DNA from: Hydrogenophaga pseudoflava
GTDB taxonomy: Bacteria > Pseudomonadota > Gammaproteobacteria > Burkholderiales > Burkholderiaceae_C
Reading direction: 5' to 3'
Length of the DNA stretch: 64,000 nt
Assembly: GCF_031020795.1 (NCBI RefSeq)
Contig: NZ_JAVHJP010000003.1
Coordinates: 675,408 to 739,407 of the forward strand
The position numbers were made by a program, and so were the translations under genes. Shown here one piece after another: positions 53,032 through 61,787 of this stretch (the first letter of the stretch is position 1; each line of letters begins with the position of its first letter). The notes below the pieces were generated by a model. The model was given only the letters and a program-made list of their open reading frames with translations, searched no databases and was not told where the DNA came from.

Positions 53032-55125
53032 TTACCGGGGGTCTGGCGCGGAGTCCAGGAACTGCCGCACCGGCTCCAGCGGCAGGCTGAAGCAGAAGGT
53101 CGCACCCTGGCCGACCACGCCTTCGCCACGCACGCTGCCGCCATGGCGCTGCAGGATGCGCTGCACACTGGCCAGCCCAACGCCCGTGCCCTCGAACTCG
53201 TCCAGCCGGTGCAGCCGCTTGAAGGGCTGGAACAGCTGGTCGGCGTAGGCCATGTCGAAGCCCGCGCCGTTGTCGCGCACACAGAAATTCAGCATGCCGT
53301 CGGCCTCTTCCAGCCCGAAGAACTCGATGTGCGCCGCCTCGGTGCGGCCGGTGTACTTCCAGGCGTTGCCCAGCAGGTTCTGCATCACCACCGTCATCAG
53401 GACGGGGTCGGCCTGTGCCGACAAACCCTCGGCAATCTCCCAGCGCACCTGGCGCGCCGGGTCGGTCTGCTCCAGCTCCCGCGCCACCGAACGCGCCAGC
53501 TCGCTGAGGTTGACATGCTGCGTGCGCAGTTCGGCCCGGCTCTGCTGCGCCATCGACAGCAGATCGTTGATCAGCAGCCCCATGCGGCGCGCGCTGCTCT
53601 GGATGCGCTGGAGCGCGTCCAGTCCGTCGTCGCTGAGCTTGTCCGCATCGCTCTCCTGCAGCAGGCTCGCAAAGCCGTGGATGCTGCGCAGCGGCGTGCG
53701 CAGATCGTGCGAGACCGAATAGGTGAACGACTCCAGGTCGCGGTTGAGCATGGTCAGCTCGCGCGTGCGCGTCTTCACCCGCCGCTCCAGTTCGGTGTTG
53801 AGCTGCTCCAGCGCGCGCTGCGCCTCGCGCAGCTCGCTGATGTCCTGGAGGGTGCCGCTGTAGGACCTTTCATGCGCGACCGGATCGCGCTGCGCGAGCA
53901 GGCGCACCCAGCGCACGCTGCGGTCGGGCCGCACGATGCGGTGCACCTGGTCGATGTCCGCGTGCTCGGCCCGCGAGCGGGCAATCGCCGCCTCCAGCGT
54001 GCCTCGGTCCTCCGGATGCACCTGCTGCCAGTAGCCGTCGAAGCCGGGCTTGAACACCGCCGGGTCCTGGCCGAAGATGCGGAAGACCTCCTGCGACCAG
54101 CCCATCACCCCGCTGTCGGGGTTGTAGGTCCAGTGGCCCACGCGCGCCAGGCGCTGCGCCACCTCCAGCCGCTGCTGGCTCGCCCGCGCCTCGTCCTGAC
54201 GACGCTCTAGGTTTCTCAGCAGCCAGCCGATCCAGGCACCCACCGCGAGCAGCGCCATCGACAGCAGCGCCGTCAGCAGCAACGCCCGGCGGCGCGTGTT
54301 TTCCAGCGGGGCCAGCACCGAGGCCTGCGACAGGCCGACCACCACGACCACGCCGCTGCCGGGCAGGCGCTGCCAGCCGAACAGCCGCGGCACGCCATCG
54401 ACGGCGCCGCCGATCCGGTATGTTCCGCGATGGGCCGTGGGGTTCTGCAGAAAGGGCCTTTCGGGCGGCAGGTTCTGGCCCATGGCTGCGGCGTTGTCCA
54501 GGCTGCGCGCCAGGAACGAGCCACCCGGGTGCACCAGGGCCACCAGGTCGTTGTCCGAGAGCGCCAGCCGCCCCAGCAGCCGGGCCAGGTGCTCGGACGA
54601 CACGTTGAAGTGCACCGCCCCCGCAAACGCCCCGTCCCGGAACATCGGCCGCCCCACGATGATCTGCCACTGCCCGGTCAGCCGCGAGCGCACCGGCTCG
54701 CCCACCACCAGCCGGTCGCTGCCCTGGCGCAGGGCCTGGAAATGGGGCCGGTCGCCGACGAAAGTGCCCGGAACGACCCCCAGGCTGTTGTGGATCACCG
54801 TGCCGCCGGCATCAATCACCGACAGGTGGGACACCAGGCCCTTGGGCAGGCCGGCGAGCACCTCCTGCTCCACCTCGTCAAAGGCTGCGCGGGACTTGGG
54901 CCAGGCCGAGCGAAGACCCAGCAGCCCCAGGTCCAGCACCGCCAGGCTGCTCTCCATCTGCCCCGCCATGGCGTTGGCCAGCTGCTGGCTGCGCAGCTGC
55001 GCGCGCTCCAGCATCTGGTCGCGCAACTGCCCCTGCAGTTGCAGGCTCAGCCCCCAGAGCAGCAGCACGGCCAGCGCTGTGAACAGCGCCACGGCCGTGA
55101 CCATGGATCGCAGGCGAGAAATCAA
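53032..55125 (-). CDS. Membrane Cache-PAS sensor histidine kinase, copy 1
   Basis: 697 aa from a TTG at 55125 (MISRLRSMVT); an ATG at 55188 is possible but lacks a ribosome site. The TTG is supported by the paralogue next to it (695 aa). TM1 at about 9-28, extracytoplasmic dCache-like domain at about 30-275 (GLVSHLSVIDAGGTVIHNSLG, GDRPHFQAL, LTGQWQIIVGRPMF), TM2 at about 283-305, PAS at about 325-435, HisKA with His in SYSVSHDLRTPLRS, then HATPase (NLLGNAWKYTG, DNGAGFDM, GTGVGLAS). No receiver is present. A response regulator for it is not in the vicinity. Confidence 0.85.
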   Translation of the reverse strand: MISRLRSMVTAVALFTALAVLLLWGLSLQLQGQLRDQMLERAQLRSQQLANAMAGQMESSLAVLDLGLLGLRSAWPKSRAAFDEVEQEVLAGLPKGLVSHLSVIDAGGTVIHNSLGVVPGTFVGDRPHFQALRQGSDRLVVGEPVRSRLTGQWQIIVGRPMFRDGAFAGAVHFNVSSEHLARLLGRLALSDNDLVALVHPGGSFLARSLDNAAAMGQNLPPERPFLQNPTAHRGTYRIGGAVDGVPRLFGWQRLPGSGVVVVVGLSQASVLAPLENTRRRALLLTALLSMALLAVGAWIGWLLRNLERRQDEARASQQRLEVAQRLARVGHWTYNPDSGVMGWSQEVFRIFGQDPAVFKPGFDGYWQQVHPEDRGTLEAAIARSRAEHADIDQVHRIVRPDRSVRWVRLLAQRDPVAHERSYSGTLQDISELREAQRALEQLNTELERRVKTRTRELTMLNRDLESFTYSVSHDLRTPLRSIHGFASLLQESDADKLSDDGLDALQRIQSSARRMGLLINDLLSMAQQSRAELRTQHVNLSELARSVARELEQTDPARQVRWEIAEGLSAQADPVLMTVVMQNLLGNAWKYTGRTEAAHIEFFGLEEADGMLNFCVRDNGAGFDMAYADQLFQPFKRLHRLDEFEGTGVGLASVQRILQRHGGSVRGEGVVGQGATFCFSLPLEPVRQFLDSAPDPR

Positions 55126-55230
55126 GACACCCCCTGTTGCGTCCGCGCAAGACGGTGACCCCTCGGCTCTGGCGGCGGGTGGCCCCATCGGACATGTATC
55201 GATTTGTACTCTTTTTTGGCCGGTCTGGGT

Positions 55231-57318
55231 TCACCAGGCTGTCACGGGCGCCAACGCAGGCGCCTTGGGCAGAGAAAAATAGAACGCGGCGCCCTGCCCC
55301 ACCACGCCTTCACCGCGCACCTGCCCGCCGTGGCGGCGGACCACCCGGCTGACAGTGGCCAGGCCCACGCCCGAGCCCTCGAACTCGTGGTGGGCGTGCA
55401 GGCGCCGGAAGGGCTGGAACAGCTGGGCGGCGTAGGCCATGTCGAAGCCCGCGCCGTTGTCGCGCACGCAGAAGGTCACAAGGCCGTCGGCGCTGTGTGT
55501 CCGGCTCAGGCTGATGCGCGGCTGCGGCGTCTGCCCGGTGTACTTCCAGGCGTTGCCCAGCAGGTTCTGCAGCACCACCCGCATCAGGCCCGGGTCGGCC
55601 ATGGCGTGCAGACCCTCCTCGATGTCCCAGTCCACCTCGCGCCCGGGTTCCGCGCGGTGCAGGTCGGCCGCCAGCTGCAGAGCCAGCTCGCTCAGGTCCA
55701 CCCGTGCCAGGTTCATCTTCGCGCGACCCAGGTGCGCCAGCGACAGCAGGTCGGTGATGAGCTGGCCCATGCGGCGCGAACCGTCCTGGATGCGCCGCAG
55801 GTGCCGGCGGCCGGCGTCGGAGAGCCGGTCCGACTCCTCCTCTTCCAGCACGCAGGCAAAGCCGTGGATGCTGCGCAGCGGCGTGCGCAGATCGTGCGAG
55901 ACGCTGTAGGCAAAGGCTTCCAGTTCTCGGTTGGCCTGGGCCAGTTCGCCGGTCCGCCGGCTCACACGCGACTCCAGCTCCTCGTTCAGCTGCTGCAGGG
56001 CCAGCTGCGCTTCCCGCACCTCGGTGATGTCCAGCACCGTGCCCATGCTGCGCACCGGGCGGTCGCCTTCGTATTCGGTCACTCCGCGCTCGCGCACGTA
56101 CTTGATGCGCCCCCCGGGCAGCAGCAGGCGGTGCACCACGTTGTAGGTCCGGCGGTCGCGGATCGAGGCGTCGAACGCCTGCTGCACCATCCGCCGGTCG
56201 TCCGGATGCACCCACTCCAGGAAACGCTCGAACGAGGGCTGCACTATGGCGGGGTCGACTTCGAAGATGCGGTACACCTCGTCGGACCAGTGCAGCCGGC
56301 CGGTGGCCAGATCGCACTCCCAGCTCCCCAGGCCCGCCAGTTGCTGGGCCTCCTTCAGCCCTGCCTCGCTGCGCGCCAGCGCGCGCTGGTCGCGGGTCAT
56401 GCGCAGCTGGTCGCGCACGATCACGCCCCCAAAACCGAGCAGCAGCAGGGACAGCACCCCGGTGACCAGCAGGTTGCGTCGCAGCGCCGGCGCCAGCGGC
56501 GCCAGCACCGAGTCGTCGGCCAGACCGACCGACACCACCAGCCCCGAGTCGGGCAGGCGGTGCCAGCCGTAGGTGCGCGGTGCGTGATCCACCACGTCGC
56601 CCACGCGGTAGGTACCGTGCAACAGCGTCGGCAGCGCCCGGTAGGGCCTGTCGGCCGGCACCTGCTTGCCCATCGACGCCTCGTTGCCTTCGCTGCGCGC
56701 GAGGTAGTGTCCGTCCGGGTGCACCAGCGACACGACGTCCTGGTCCGACAGTTCCAGCTTGCCCAGCTCGCGGGCGAGGTACACCGACTCCACCACCATG
56801 TAGATGACCCCGTCGAAACGCCCCTGGCGCAGCATGGGCCTGTCCACTGCGAACACCCAGCGCCCGGTCAGGCGCGAACGCACCGTGGCCGACACCCGCA
56901 TCGCGTCGGGGCCCTGGCTCGCCACCCGGAAACTGTCGCGGTCGCCCACATAGCGGCCGGTCTCCAGCCCCAGGCTGTTGTAGACCAGATGGCCACTCGC
57001 GTCGGCCACCGACACGTGCGAGACCAGGCCCGGCGGCAGACTGGCCAGGGCGTCCTTGGTCAGCACGTCGAAGCGCTCACGCGGCTCGCGCGCCCAGTGG
57101 TCTCGCAGCGTCCTGAGCGTGACGTCCATCGTGCTCAGATGCGCCCGCACCTGGCCGGCCATCGCATCGGCCACATGCAGGCTGCGCTGCTCGGCCTGCA
57201 GCAGCACCTGCTCGCGCAGCTGGTTCTGGGCGCGCAGCGCCTGCCACCACAACACCCCGGCCGCGACCACGGTGAACAGCGCCACCAGCAGCGCAAAGGA
57301 GCGGGAAAGCGCCTTCAA
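55231..57318 (-). CDS. Membrane Cache-PAS sensor histidine kinase, copy 2
   Basis: 695 aa from a TTG at 57318, with GAGG and 8-nt spacing upstream (GTGAGGGCGTTCCG); a GTG further upstream is weaker. The same layout as copy 1: TM1, dCache-like domain (GLVSHVSVADASGHLVYNSLG, GDRDSFRVASQ, LTGRWVFAVDRPML), TM2 (LLVTGVLSLLLLGFGGVIV), PAS (about 325-435), HisKA (AYSVSHDLRTPLRS), HATPase (NLLGNAWKYTGQ, DNGAGFDM, GSGVGLAT). The two genes lie in tandem, 105 bases apart, with many identical motifs, so they arose by duplication and then split in ligand or output. Confidence 0.85.
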   Translation of the reverse strand: MKALSRSFALLVALFTVVAAGVLWWQALRAQNQLREQVLLQAEQRSLHVADAMAGQVRAHLSTMDVTLRTLRDHWAREPRERFDVLTKDALASLPPGLVSHVSVADASGHLVYNSLGLETGRYVGDRDSFRVASQGPDAMRVSATVRSRLTGRWVFAVDRPMLRQGRFDGVIYMVVESVYLARELGKLELSDQDVVSLVHPDGHYLARSEGNEASMGKQVPADRPYRALPTLLHGTYRVGDVVDHAPRTYGWHRLPDSGLVVSVGLADDSVLAPLAPALRRNLLVTGVLSLLLLGFGGVIVRDQLRMTRDQRALARSEAGLKEAQQLAGLGSWECDLATGRLHWSDEVYRIFEVDPAIVQPSFERFLEWVHPDDRRMVQQAFDASIRDRRTYNVVHRLLLPGGRIKYVRERGVTEYEGDRPVRSMGTVLDITEVREAQLALQQLNEELESRVSRRTGELAQANRELEAFAYSVSHDLRTPLRSIHGFACVLEEEESDRLSDAGRRHLRRIQDGSRRMGQLITDLLSLAHLGRAKMNLARVDLSELALQLAADLHRAEPGREVDWDIEEGLHAMADPGLMRVVLQNLLGNAWKYTGQTPQPRISLSRTHSADGLVTFCVRDNGAGFDMAYAAQLFQPFRRLHAHHEFEGSGVGLATVSRVVRRHGGQVRGEGVVGQGAAFYFSLPKAPALAPVTAW

Positions 57319-57541
57319 CGGAACGCCCTCACGCGACGACCCAGGCGCCACACGGGGCGCGTTGCTGCAATGCACCAATCCACAACGACGGTCTCTGTAT
57401 GTATGAAGGGCCACCTTCCAGGCGGGTGGCAGGCTTGCACGATTCTGGCGCGCGGACCTTACGCGCAGCCAATACCAGCGTCTGCATCCCGTTCATTTCG
57501 TCACGGAGCGCCGCAAGTTGAGCAGCCGGCGCCCGCCGGGC

Positions 57542-58582
57542 TCAGTGGCCGTGCCGGTGGTGCAGGTCGGGCGCGTGCGGGTGGGTGTGGCGCAGCGGTG
57601 CATGGTGATGCGGGTGGCTGTGCGCGCCCTCGGGCATCACCTCGTGGGTGTGGCTGTGGTGCCCGTCGTCGTGGGTGTGGGCGTGTTCGTGGTCCAGCGC
57701 CTCGTGCGCGTGTTCGTGCCCGTGGTCTTCGGCCAGGTGCACCAGCACGCCCGCCACCATCAGTGCACCGCCCACCAGCAGCAGCACGCTGGCCGAGCGT
57801 TCGCCCAGCGCGAACGCACCGAGCGCGCCGATGAAAGGCGCGAAGGCGAACACCGAGCCGGTGCGCGCGGCGCCGAAATGGCGCTGCGCCAGCAGGTAGA
57901 AGCGCAGGCTCAGGCCGTAGCCGGTGGCGCCCACGGCCAGCAGCGCCAGCGCCGCGGGCCACCCTGGCCGCGGCTCGCCCCAGGCCAGCGCCAGCGCGCT
58001 CGTGACCGCCGCTCCCAGCGCCGCCTTGGCCAGCACCACCTGGCCCGGGTCGCGGTCGGCCACGCCGCGCGAAAGCGTGTTGTCCACGCCCCAGGCCACC
58101 GTGGCCACGGCCACCGCCAGCAGGCCGAGCAACTGCACCTGGCCCGTGAGGCCCTGGTCGATCACCAGCAGCGCGCCGCCGGCCAGCAGCAGGGCCACCG
58201 CCGACTTCACCCGACCGTCCAGCACCTCGCCGTACCAGCGCCAGGCCAGCACCGCCGTGAACACGGCTTCGAGCGTGAGCAGCAGCGAGGCGCTGGCGCC
58301 ACTGGTGCGCTGCAGCCCCCAGGCCAGTGCCACCGGCCCGAGCACCGCACCCGCCGCCACCATGGCCAGCAGGCGCGGAGCATCGCTGCGGCGCAGGGGC
58401 GCCTCCACCTGGGCGCCGCGCCGCTGCAGCAGCGCCACCAGCGCCGCGCCCGCGTACAGCAGGGCGGCCGTGGAAAACGGCCCCAGCCCCAGGCCGAAGC
58501 GCTGCACCAGCGGCGTGCTCAGGCCGAACAGGGCCGCGGCCAGCAGGGCCAGCAGGCCGCCGCGCAGAACGGGCGAGGCCAT
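57542..58582 (-). CDS. DMT/EamA transporter with a histidine-rich C-terminal tail (CnrT-like)
   Basis: 346 aa from ATG 58582 (a GTG at 58591 overlaps the previous stop as GTGA and is the alternative). Ten TM helices in two EamA halves cover about 8-281 (TSGASASLLLTLEAVFTAVLAW). Residues 282-346 carry 25 histidines, e.g. DHEHAHTHDDGHHSHTH, a soft-metal-binding tail. DMT proteins with such tails (CnrT, NreB-adjacent) occur in nickel/cobalt resistance of Cupriavidus; exporter function is inferred. It is the last of five co-directional genes. Confidence 0.82.
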   Translation of the reverse strand: MASPVLRGGLLALLAAALFGLSTPLVQRFGLGLGPFSTAALLYAGAALVALLQRRGAQVEAPLRRSDAPRLLAMVAAGAVLGPVALAWGLQRTSGASASLLLTLEAVFTAVLAWRWYGEVLDGRVKSAVALLLAGGALLVIDQGLTGQVQLLGLLAVAVATVAWGVDNTLSRGVADRDPGQVVLAKAALGAAVTSALALAWGEPRPGWPAALALLAVGATGYGLSLRFYLLAQRHFGAARTGSVFAFAPFIGALGAFALGERSASVLLLVGGALMVAGVLVHLAEDHGHEHAHEALDHEHAHTHDDGHHSHTHEVMPEGAHSHPHHHAPLRHTHPHAPDLHHRHGH

Positions 58583-58587
58583 GGCGT

Positions 58588-58938
58588 TCACTGGCCGGTG
58601 TGGTTGGCGACGATGAAATTGCCCGGCTGGGAGAAAAAGATGTAGAGCGTCTGCTTGCCGGCGTCGGCGACAGCCGGGTTCTTGAAGCTGACTTTCCACT
58701 CCTTGCCCTTCTTGCCGTCGATCAGTTCCAGCTTGTCCTGCGGGACCGCCTGCCAGGAGGCGTCGAGCTTGCCCGCCTTGACCAGGGCGGCCTTGCGTTT
58801 GGCCGCGCAATCGGTGACCACGGCTTCGGTGGCGGGCTTGCTGCCGTGGAAGTGGCAGTTGCCGCCCGCGTCGGCCACGGCGGCGGGCGCGGCGAACAAG
58901 GTCGAGACCAGGGTGGAGATGGTGAAAAGGGCTTTCAT
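58588..58938 (-). CDS. Small exported protein, DUF6488-like
   Basis: 116 aa from ATG 58938 (CAAGGATTGCCC upstream). Signal peptide at 1-20 (LFTISTLVSTLFAAPAAVA|D). The mature part has one Cys-His-Phe-His motif (GGNCHFHGSKP) and ends VADAGKQTLYIFFSQPGNFIVANHTG. The pattern resembles small proteins of the DUF6488 group, by recall. Role unknown; the CHFH motif and the context suggest metal binding in the periplasm. It overlaps or abuts the transporter gene. Confidence 0.65.
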   Translation of the reverse strand: MKALFTISTLVSTLFAAPAAVADAGGNCHFHGSKPATEAVVTDCAAKRKAALVKAGKLDASWQAVPQDKLELIDGKKGKEWKVSFKNPAVADAGKQTLYIFFSQPGNFIVANHTGQ

Positions 58939-58981
58939 GGGCAATCCTTGGAGGTGCTGAAACAGTGACAGGAACAGAGCA

Positions 58982-59770
58982 TCAGAGGCCGTCGCGGCTC
59001 GGATCTTCGGTGTTTTCAACATCGAGGTCCTCGTGCGCGTGGCGGTGTTCGGCGGCCGGGAAGCGGAAGCTGTCCGGGTCGGCGTCGTGCTGGTAGCCGT
59101 GCAGCTGCACGAACAGCAGGTAGACCCCGGCGTAGAACAGGGCCAGGTTGGCCATGTAGGCAAAGCGCTTGAACGAGGCCCGGTGCCGCCACAGCGCCAG
59201 CAGACCGACCATCACCACCAGCGCCGCGATCTGGCCCAGCTCCACGCCGACGTTGAAGCTCAGGATGCGCCAGAGCATCTGCATCGGGTCGTCGCCCAGC
59301 GGCAGCTGCTGCAGCCGGGTCGACAGGCCGAAGCCGTGCAGCAGGCCGAAGCCGAACACCATCCACAGCAGGTTGGGCGACGCCATCTGGAAGTGTTTCT
59401 GGAAGCCGCCGTTGTTGTCGAAGGCCTTGTACATCACGCTCAGCGCAATGATGGCGTCGATCAGGAAGTAGTTCCAGGTGATCTGGAAGAAGGTCGCGGC
59501 GATCAGCGTGATGCAGTGTCCCAGCGTGAAGATCGAGACGAACTTCACCACGTCCTTGAACGAGGCCAGGAAGAACACCACGCCGAAGAGGAACAGCAGG
59601 TGGTCGTAGCCGGTGAGCATGTGGCTGGCGCCCAGGCCCACGTACTGGAGATGACCGCCGTCCAGCATGCGCTGACGGTCTTCGTCGGAAATGCCGTGGG
59701 CCAGGGCCACGAGCGGGGTGAGGGTCGCGAGCAGCGCAGCGGCCGCCCGCCCCGGAGAGGGAAGGTTCAT
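58982..59770 (-). CDS. HupE/UreJ-like nickel/cobalt permease family protein
   Basis: 262 aa from ATG 59770 (GGAATCTC upstream). Signal at 1-24 ending ALAHG. Six to seven TM helices follow, with family motifs YVGLGASHMLTGYDHLLFLFGVVFF, FTLGHCITLIAA, and LLHGFGLSTRLQQLPLGDD. The tail is His/Asp/Glu-rich (HRHAHEDLDVENTEDPSRD). HupE and UreJ import Ni2+ for hydrogenase and urease; neither enzyme is encoded in this window. A perfect palindrome lies between it and the upstream His-rich gene. Confidence 0.85.
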   Translation of the reverse strand: MNLPSPGRAAAALLATLTPLVALAHGISDEDRQRMLDGGHLQYVGLGASHMLTGYDHLLFLFGVVFFLASFKDVVKFVSIFTLGHCITLIAATFFQITWNYFLIDAIIALSVMYKAFDNNGGFQKHFQMASPNLLWMVFGFGLLHGFGLSTRLQQLPLGDDPMQMLWRILSFNVGVELGQIAALVVMVGLLALWRHRASFKRFAYMANLALFYAGVYLLFVQLHGYQHDADPDSFRFPAAEHRHAHEDLDVENTEDPSRDGL

Positions 59771-59801
59771 GAGATTCCGGAAATGAGGATTGAAGCCACA
59801 T

Positions 59802-59821
59802 GACCGGCCTGCAGGCCGGTC
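59802..59821. other. Perfect 20-bp palindrome upstream of the HupE-like gene
   Basis: GACCGGCCTGCAGGCCGGTC has no mismatch. It lies 27 bases after the stop of the His-rich gene and 31 bases before the HupE-like start, on the transcribed minus strand. It can form a hairpin without a T tract, or act as a protein site. It could separate expression of the upstream and downstream halves of the metal cluster. Confidence 0.45.
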
Positions 59822-59848
59822 GGTCCACACAGCGCGCCCGCAGGGGCG

Positions 59849-60244
59849 TCAGGCGGTGGCCCGGGGCGGGCGCAGCAGACCGTCGAGGTCTGCAGAGACG
59901 GGCAGCGCCTCACCCCACGCCGGAGGGGCGCCCGCGGGCGAGGTGAGCGGCAACATGGCCGACGCCACCGGAAGCCCCGGGGACTGCATGCCCTCGGCGG
60001 CGTGCGAGTGGTGGGGGCCGGGTTCGCTGTCGTCCTGGGCGTCGACGATCAGCAAGCTTGCATCCACCTCGTGGCCCTGCCCGTCGTGAGACGAGAGGTG
60101 CTGGTGGTGACCATGATCGAGCGCGTGCGCCACCTCGTGCGACAGGCGCTCGGCCTGTTCGGCCCGCTGGGCGGGCAGCGCCCAGGCCACGGACTGCAAC
60201 AGCAGTCCGAACAGCAGGAGCCAGGTGGTCAGGGCGGATTTCAC
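59849..60244 (-). CDS. Small exported histidine-rich protein
   Basis: 131 aa from a GTG at 60244; AGGG is close but too near to be a good site, and CATAAAAT just upstream could be a -10 giving a near-leaderless transcript. Signal peptide at about 1-23 (LTTWLLLFGLLLQSVAWA|L). The mature part has His clusters HALDHGHHQHLSSHDGQGHE (about 40-60) and PHHSHAAEG (about 77-85), then an acidic/Pro tail. No known family; probably a periplasmic metal-buffering protein. The cluster order is ALDC-like, His-rich, HupE, DUF6488-like, DMT. Confidence 0.65.
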   Translation of the reverse strand: MKSALTTWLLLFGLLLQSVAWALPAQRAEQAERLSHEVAHALDHGHHQHLSSHDGQGHEVDASLLIVDAQDDSEPGPHHSHAAEGMQSPGLPVASAMLPLTSPAGAPPAWGEALPVSADLDGLLRPPRATA

Positions 60245-60324
60245 AGCCCTGGATTTTATGGGTGCAAGGCCAGCCGATGCCACCGCAAGGCCAGTGCTGG
60301 CCTCACGCCTGTCCGGCCCCACCA

Positions 60325-61083
60325 CTACTTCAGCGGCACCCAGAGCATCGATCCGGCGCGCACCGTGTACTGGTCCACATGTCCGGAGACGTTCATCCCG
60401 TCGTCGATGTAGTGAAGGTGAAAGCGCTCGCCCGCGTGCGACACCACGCCCTCCAGCTGGGCACCGCTGTAGACCCCGACCAGCTGACCACTGGCCTGCG
60501 GGTTGCGAAACACCGTCTGGCCCGATGCCTGATTGGCGTGGCCACTGACGTGGCTGCCGTGGCCGCCGTCTCCCTGTGGCGTGTGCCCGCCAGCAGCAGC
60601 CACCGGCTTCTCGCCGGTCACCACATGCCAGATCAGGTGCGAATAGCCACCCGTCACACGAAACACGAAGGGCTGTTCCAGATCGAGCTTCCGCGCCCGC
60701 GCCTGCTCCTGGACGAAGACCTCGAACTGCGGCTGGCCCATGGTCGCCGGCACTGGCACTTGCGCCCACCCGCTCACCCGTGCGCTCGCCCAGAGCGTGG
60801 CAGAGGCCTGCGCACCCGGCGGTTGCACCCGGCCCTGCGGGTCCGAACCGTGACTCACCAGCACACGCCCGTCGATCTGGATCACCTCGCCCCTGAGGTC
60901 CGCCAGCGCGCCCACGCCCCAGCCCCCTGGCACACCCTCCAGTGGCGACAACGCCACCTGACCGGCCGCCTGGCCCGAACGCATCATCTGCGTGAAGTTG
61001 CCGTGGTGCTGAAACCCCATGGGCTGCGCCCAGGCCAGCCCCGCAACCAGGGCCAGCGCGCCCAGCCAATGTCTCTTGATCAT
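60325..61083 (-). CDS. Exported acetolactate-decarboxylase-fold protein (BudA-like)
   Basis: 252 aa from ATG 61083 with GGAAGG and 7-nt spacing. Signal peptide at 1-19 (LGALALVAGLAWA|Q). The body aligns by eye with BudA: LADLRGEVIQIDGRVLV (ELDGELI in BudA), QPFVFRVTGGYSHLIWHVV, QLVGVYSGAQLEGVVSHAGERFHLHYIDDG. The zinc triad His222, His224 and His235 (HLHY...SGHV) is retained, and Glu66 could match the catalytic Glu. A His-rich insert (163-189, GGHTPQGDGGHGSHVSGHAN) is not in cytoplasmic BudA. An enzymatic role outside the cytoplasm is unclear. First gene of the metal operon. Confidence 0.7.
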   Translation of the reverse strand: MIKRHWLGALALVAGLAWAQPMGFQHHGNFTQMMRSGQAAGQVALSPLEGVPGGWGVGALADLRGEVIQIDGRVLVSHGSDPQGRVQPPGAQASATLWASARVSGWAQVPVPATMGQPQFEVFVQEQARARKLDLEQPFVFRVTGGYSHLIWHVVTGEKPVAAAGGHTPQGDGGHGSHVSGHANQASGQTVFRNPQASGQLVGVYSGAQLEGVVSHAGERFHLHYIDDGMNVSGHVDQYTVRAGSMLWVPLK

Positions 61084-61150
61084 CCCCACACCTTCCTTTG
61101 TTGATCGGGTTCCGCAGAGGCGCCAGTGTGGTCTGGCGAGACCCCGATGA

Positions 61151-61168
61151 ATATGATTGATGTCATAT
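61151..61168. promoter_or_regulatory. Crp/Fnr-type operator between the metal operon and its regulator
   Basis: ATATGA-TTGATG-TCATAT has perfect 6-bp arms and a 6-bp spacer, the geometry of Crp-family sites (TGTGA-N6-TCACA). It lies 13 bases before the regulator ATG (61182) and 67 bases before the ALDC-like ATG (61083) in the 98-base divergent region. It is likely an operator for the regulator itself, able to control both directions. Confidence 0.55.
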
Positions 61169-61181
61169 CCCTGCCGCCGCC

Positions 61182-61787
61182 ATGCCCGCACCGCCCCCAC
61201 TCGACCGCTTGCTCCCGCCATCCTTGCACCCCTTGTGCAAGGGCCAGTCCCACCCAGCGGGCGCGTCGCTGTTCCTCAGCGGGCACAAGCCACGCTGGAT
61301 GTACTTTGTGAACGAAGGCGAGGTGGTGCTGGAACGGCACGGAGAAAACGGCGAAACCGCCTCCCTTCAGCGTTGCCAGCACGGTTTTGTTGGTGAGGCC
61401 AGCCTCACCTCCGGCCGCTACCACTGCGACGCGCGAACCACCCGACCCACCACCGTCACGCGCATCCCCGTCGAAGCCTTGCGCCAGGCGCTCAGGGACG
61501 ACCGGGATTTTTCCGAGCGCTGGATCGCGATGCTCAGCGGCGAAGTGCGCAGACTGCGCCTGAGCAATGAACGCCTGAGCTTGCCCAAAGTGCAGGACCG
61601 GCTCCTGCACCTCATCGAAACCGAAGGCAGCCAGGGCCGCTACACACTCGACTGCACGCTCAAGCAACTGGCCCGGCAACTGGCCGTCACCCACGAAGCG
61701 CTGTACCGGGCGCTGGCCGAGCTGGAACGGGGGCAGCGGATCGAGCGCGATGGGGGCGCGATCCTCCTGCGCAAGGCAAGGCCTTGA
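61182..61787 (+). CDS. Crp/Fnr-family transcriptional regulator
   Basis: 201 aa. cNMP-like sensor domain (about 15-105: WMYFVNEGEVVLERHGENGETASLQRCQHGFVGEASLTSG) and winged HTH (about 135-195: TLDCTLKQLARQLAVTHEALYRALAELERG). The N-terminal FNR cysteine cluster is absent, so it is not an oxygen-sensing FNR. The usual cAMP-binding Arg/Ser set is not evident. Divergent from the metal operon with a Crp-type palindrome between them; it is likely the local regulator. The signal is unknown. Confidence 0.88.
   Translation: MPAPPPLDRLLPPSLHPLCKGQSHPAGASLFLSGHKPRWMYFVNEGEVVLERHGENGETASLQRCQHGFVGEASLTSGRYHCDARTTRPTTVTRIPVEALRQALRDDRDFSERWIAMLSGEVRRLRLSNERLSLPKVQDRLLHLIETEGSQGRYTLDCTLKQLARQLAVTHEALYRALAELERGQRIERDGGAILLRKARP

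Follow-up and report, generated by a model that had tools for sequence, protein, structure and literature searches.

Gene content of the locus

Five genes lie in a row on the minus strand of the window (the whole 64,000-nucleotide stretch of the Hydrogenophaga pseudoflava genome analyzed here), with a regulator gene divergent from them. In the direction of transcription they encode an exported protein with an acetolactate decarboxylase (ALDC) fold (60325..61083; PF03306, 51.7 bits against a cutoff of 25), a His-rich exported peptide with a GTG start and LLRPP at its end (59849..60244), a HupE_UreJ_2 permease with a signal peptide, an H-x5-DH motif and a His-containing end (58982..59770; PF13795, 173.8 bits, cutoff 24.5), a small exported protein in which an N-terminal HxH takes the form CHFH (58588..58938), and a CnrT-like DMT/EamA inner-membrane exporter with a His-rich C-terminal tail of 65 residues (57542..58582; PF00892, 78.8 bits, cutoff 28.2). 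The small CHFH protein bears the family name DUF6488 because its match to PF20098 (86.2 bits, cutoff 27) lies above the cutoff. The intergenic gaps, in the same order, are exactly 80, 78, 43 and 5 bases. The divergent gene, on the plus strand (61182..61787), encodes a Crp/Fnr-family regulator that matches PF00027 (48.8 bits, cutoff 27.5) and PF13545 (27 bits), giving a cNMP-binding fold and a Crp helix-turn-helix; its residues C19 and C82 are conserved, and it does not reach the equivalog cutoffs for FtrB. A preliminary description of this DNA had reported five same-strand genes with these gaps and a divergent Crp gene, and the coordinates bear this out in full; its count of 25 His among the last 65 residues of the DMT protein was reproduced, and the profile scores place its family calls (ALDC fold, HupE/UreJ-like, DMT, Crp-type) all above cutoff. 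Next to the last four genes of the row lies a tandem pair of sensor histidine kinase genes of a single type (53032-57414), whose homologues also flank these four genes in several congeners. Within the window the four genes have no metal sensor gene beside them, a point that counts against the resistance reading given below.

Two probable neighboring transcription units

The preliminary description proposed that all five genes and the Crp-family gene form one metal-buffering operon, and a search for their co-occurrence in other genomes was the check it set. Their common strand and short gaps favor this, as do the zinc-binding nature of the ALDC fold and a His-rich linker in the ALDC-like protein, and no terminator was seen between the ALDC-like gene and the His-rich peptide gene, so that read-through from the former is possible (a scan for consensus promoters and terminators returned no promoter and two terminators only, which is the chance level). 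In the neighborhood search, however, the five-gene set failed and the last four genes survived as a set. Close homologues of the ALDC-like gene occur in 4 of about 67 congeneric genomes, and only one of these four, that of the window, also has the other genes, where chance predicts 0.8. DUF6488, by contrast, is found in 14 of the about 67, in every case with an adjacent HupE orthologue (78-97%; hypergeometric P ~1.5e-13), and the order of the four genes recurs in many congeners, more than chance would give. We refer to these four genes, of which the peptide gene is the first, as the cassette; the ALDC-like gene, the operator described below and the Crp-family gene are its neighbors and not its members.

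The regulatory sequences divide the locus at the same place. The Crp-family gene is kept with the ALDC-like gene in congeners lacking the cassette; it is divergent from it in two (G030 and G047), and in a third (G014) it is divergent from a gene for a metallo-beta-lactamase (MBL) fold protein that is directly followed by the ALDC-like gene. In all four loci, the window included, the space between the Crp-family gene and its divergent neighbor contains a palindrome, ATATGA-N5/6-ATCATA, that varies slightly from locus to locus. The operator in the window, ATATGA-N6-TCATAT (61151..61168), is common to the Crp-family and ALDC-like genes, and a pattern search of the 5 Mb genome found this as its single perfect match, with none 5' of the His-rich peptide gene. 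The cassette has a promoter-like element of its own: a -10-like TAAAAT on the minus strand (60253..60258) lies just 5' of the GTG, and in nearly all cassette loci, including the window, the peptide start is preceded at a distance of 12-14 bases by TA(A/G)AAT or a near match to it; in the window this hexamer occurs only twice in 64 kb with both strands counted. (At L061 and L066, where the gene caller picked a later start, the element precedes the true start.) This spacing suggests that transcription may begin near the GTG and that the message could perhaps be leaderless. Co-occurrence, operator and promoter evidence, together with the MBL-fold, OsmC and rhodanese genes that accompany other ALDC-like loci, lead us to reject a single five-gene operon under the Crp-family regulator, a reading to which we would give very little credence. 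We conclude that the ALDC-like gene and its regulator are a separate divergent unit that lies upstream of the cassette by happenstance, and that the cassette is probably transcribed from its own promoter.

The ALDC-like protein is probably zinc-binding, to judge from its residues: H222, H224, H235 and E66 are invariant in seven homologues, and in an alignment to 5xne the zinc triad HxH-x10-H and the GE motif of acetolactate decarboxylase are kept with the same spacing. All 14 significant Foldseek matches of its structure model are ALDC or ALDC-like chains; because the model is of low confidence (pLDDT 52.6), we draw on the consistency of these matches and on no structural detail. The likeness to acetolactate decarboxylase lies in this fold and the equally spaced triad, whereas the window protein is exported, carries its His-rich linker and scores below the enzyme equivalog cutoff (TIGR01252, 44.3 vs 180.65). 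In four other genomes the ALDC-like gene adjoins a gene for an exported MBL-fold hydrolase (L007:2016-3682, L008:1085-2755, L010:4339-5951 and G592:C44:14305-15252), and genes for OsmC, rhodanese, a sigma-54 regulator or a PLP enzyme lie near some of these loci (OsmC, rhodanese and the PLP enzyme being named by eye from translations). A thiol or sulfur role for the ALDC-like protein may be taken from this as a lead only. The more remote relatives of ALDC within the order (L112-L114) had no gene context in common with the window.

Composition and variants of the cassette

The exporter of the cassette is homologous over its full length, tail included, to CnrT of Cupriavidus metallidurans plasmid pMOL28 (39% over 342 aa, E 3e-44), and the two have an HPHxPDxHHRHxH end in common, which strengthens the CnrT lead of the preliminary description. 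The pMOL28 operon, cnrYXHCBAT, thus includes a CnrT with a similar His-rich tail; it also has the CnrCBA pump and the CnrYXH sensor, neither of which is in the window cassette, and unlike the cassette it has no HupE or DUF6488 gene annotated. There is no RND gene in the cassette neighborhood and hence no linkage to CnrCBA, which bears on the type of operon and not on the protein, and nothing in the window genome comes close to CnrA (best match 32%).

Many congeners, and a second genus of the family (L088), preserve the succession of His-rich peptide, HupE, DUF6488 and exporter, and the exporters are interchangeable. Of the 14 congeners, 10 have a CnrT-like gene directly after HupE-DUF6488, two (G057 and G023) have a cation diffusion facilitator (CDF) gene there, and one (G034) has no exporter; in the remaining one (G043) the contig ends at this point. 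Both CDF proteins match PF01545, and that of G057, the one on which this test was run, passes the equivalog cutoff for the Co/Ni exporter DmeF (NF033827, 362.6 bits vs 250); no CnrT match at 1e-40 was found in either genome. In C. metallidurans the export of Ni(II) is assigned to DmeF, CnrT and CnrCBA (PMC11647595), so that putting DmeF in the place of CnrT trades one exporter of nickel/cobalt for a second. In other congeners CnrT-like genes also occur on their own, and two genomes (G027 and G054) whose flanks align at 92% and 91% differ before CnrT by some 1.7 kb that hold the peptide, HupE and DUF6488 genes, from which it follows that these three were gained or lost together.

Several related arrangements were observed. 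In G062 (L131:6727-9510) the genes for a metal-sensing repressor (PF02583), a homologue of HupE (43%), a protein without a named family and CnrT stand in one row, which is likely a regulated sister of the cassette. The protein without a name belongs to a family of 172-219 aa with LPAEY/LPSEY-x-DPTG near the start, encoded between HupE and CnrT or DUF6488 (L128:9820-10449, L131:7706-8365, L100:6885-7403, L141:8624-9223), with 31-38% identity across lineages and no match in a Pfam search. CnrT-like or cassette genes adjoin chromate resistance genes at L137:5997-8712 and L066:5802-12977; in L066 a ChrB-type gene also has an MBL gene next to it.

At each locus examined, a HupE gene lay a short way upstream of DUF6488. 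The N-terminal HxH is kept in most members, and the cysteines of CHFH are lineage-specific. Its structure model has one helix and four strands (pLDDT 78) and gave no significant fold match in the PDB, nor was one found by sequence (plasmid sequences were left out of the structure-model alignments); no paper mentioning DUF6488 was found in the literature searched. The His-rich peptide matched no Pfam or NCBIfam family, and homologues (42-67%) were found in nine congeneric loci and by inspection in three more; short exported His-rich ORFs also precede HupE in several distant loci, which does not imply homology. In one distant genome a PII-like DUF3240 protein is encoded before HupE-DUF6488 (L093:9241-9552), and in L095 a short ORF resembling it lies before HupE. 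CzcI of the czc determinant, which damps Czc (PMC9045368), is likewise a short exported His-rich protein encoded early in a metal efflux operon, but it has no detectable homology to the peptide, and this identification was rejected (hhalign probability 3%).

In a phylum sample of 14 loci from outside our own set, HupE lies beside DUF6488 in all 14, and seven have a CnrA-like gene nearby. On the Comamonas and Acidovorax plasmids pYAZ2 and pEP1, a CnrCBA-like pump (CnrA 78%) is followed by HupE-DUF6488 and then by the gene for an MFS protein whose tail contains His, and these loci also hold a ZIP-family/zinc permease gene. An RcnA/RcnR-like pair faces HupE-DUF6488 in Sulfurospirillum; a CnrA-like gene, NikR and a chromate gene are near it in Manganitrophus; and on pYGP1 of Sphingobium YG1 HupE and DUF6488 are downstream of an MFS gene and a CusA/CzcA pump. 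In these neighborhoods DUF6488, an uncharacterised family, accompanies nickel/cobalt exporters in several bacterial phyla.

Proposed function of the cassette

We propose that the four genes are a nickel/cobalt resistance cassette, with a probability of about 0.8 for the reading as a whole, in which the metal, the direction of transport and the binding roles are predicted from the gene families. CnrT would carry Ni(II), and possibly Co(II) as well, out of the cytoplasm into the periplasm and so lower cytoplasmic nickel and cobalt, the 25-His tail binding the ion as a collecting site; the exported peptide and DUF6488 may bind, buffer or hand over periplasmic metal; and the HupE-type permease would serve resistance, through export, metal holding or controlled re-entry, in place of ordinary high-affinity uptake. 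The suggestion of the preliminary description that the locus handles and buffers metal is thus well supported for the four cassette genes, through exporter homology, exporter swap and linkage, but does not extend to the ALDC-like gene and the Crp-family regulator. The cassette is new in its composition and is built on known kinds of exporter.

The least comfortable element of this proposal is the permease, as characterised HupE proteins are nickel or cobalt importers and are an odd fit in a resistance operon. The window HupE, the sole PF13795 protein in the genome, has a signal peptide, matches a HupE/UreJ profile and carries an H-x5-DH (HMLTGYDH, at residue 50), which we take to be the HupE/UreJ motif. 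It differs from the HupE/UreJ nickel permeases in belonging to PF13795 and not PF04955 (13.4 bits, below the cutoff of 23), and in its company, which is that of exporters and not of genes for hydrogenase or urease. The sequence FHGxAHGxE, presumably the classical HupE motif, is absent from it, the closest stretch being FGLLHGFGLS. Both directions of transport are represented within a single family in NicO, whose NiCoT members are importers and whose RcnA members are exporters.

One could envision that the cassette supplies nickel to a hydrogenase or urease, with HupE importing the metal, the His-rich proteins delivering it and the DMT protein acting as a safety valve. HupE/UreJ permeases do import nickel (PMC4284471, PMC11247825), but exporters are the neighbors of HupE-DUF6488 across phyla, and the expression of a related cluster is the opposite of that of an uptake gene. 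In Sphingobium sp. ba1 a cluster containing NreB, a CnrCBA-type pump and HupE/UreJ is not expressed in LB and is switched on strongly by nickel, and hupE/ureJ shows the highest up-regulation observed under nickel (PMC5557971). That cluster resembles the cassette in grouping a HupE_UreJ gene, a short His-rich ORF with a GTG start and nickel exporters (PMC5557971), although its exporters are NreB and an RND pump where the window has CnrT. DUF6488 is not named in that report; the ba1-like cluster of pYGP1 carries it, as does the window cassette, with an additional gene for a 199-aa protein between HupE and DUF6488 that the window lacks, and judging from this layout DUF6488 is probably among the nickel-induced genes of ba1. 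The genomic company of HupE and this induction by nickel point, by analogy, to a role in resistance; the HupE lead of the preliminary description gains from the exporter linkage elsewhere, and we regard a nickel-supply function as unlikely. That the cassette handles copper or zinc is highly improbable, given that CnrT, DmeF and RcnA-type neighbors belong to nickel/cobalt families, despite the zinc permease gene of the plasmid loci and the copper-type context (a DUF411/CusF protein) near the HupE-DUF6488 pair of G034, which has no adjacent exporter (L067:7100-9021).

Returning to the resistance cassette, a broader and more tentative proposal, which we consider less likely than not, is that the peptide, HupE_UreJ_2 and DUF6488 constitute an accessory module of general use in nickel/cobalt efflux and tied to no particular exporter; in it, DUF6488 would be a new periplasmic metal carrier, HupE would run outward or act as a valve, and the whole could plug into CnrT, DmeF, NreB-like, RcnA or CnrCBA exporters.

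The resistance reading gives DUF6488 a concrete and testable place in nickel/cobalt resistance. It is also relevant to a paradox, namely that within a resistance cluster the gene responding most strongly to nickel should encode what is taken for a nickel importer. Should the module enable an exporter of the inner membrane to function with no transenvelope pump, this would be a simpler means of tolerating nickel, available to environmental bacteria and carried on resistance plasmids.
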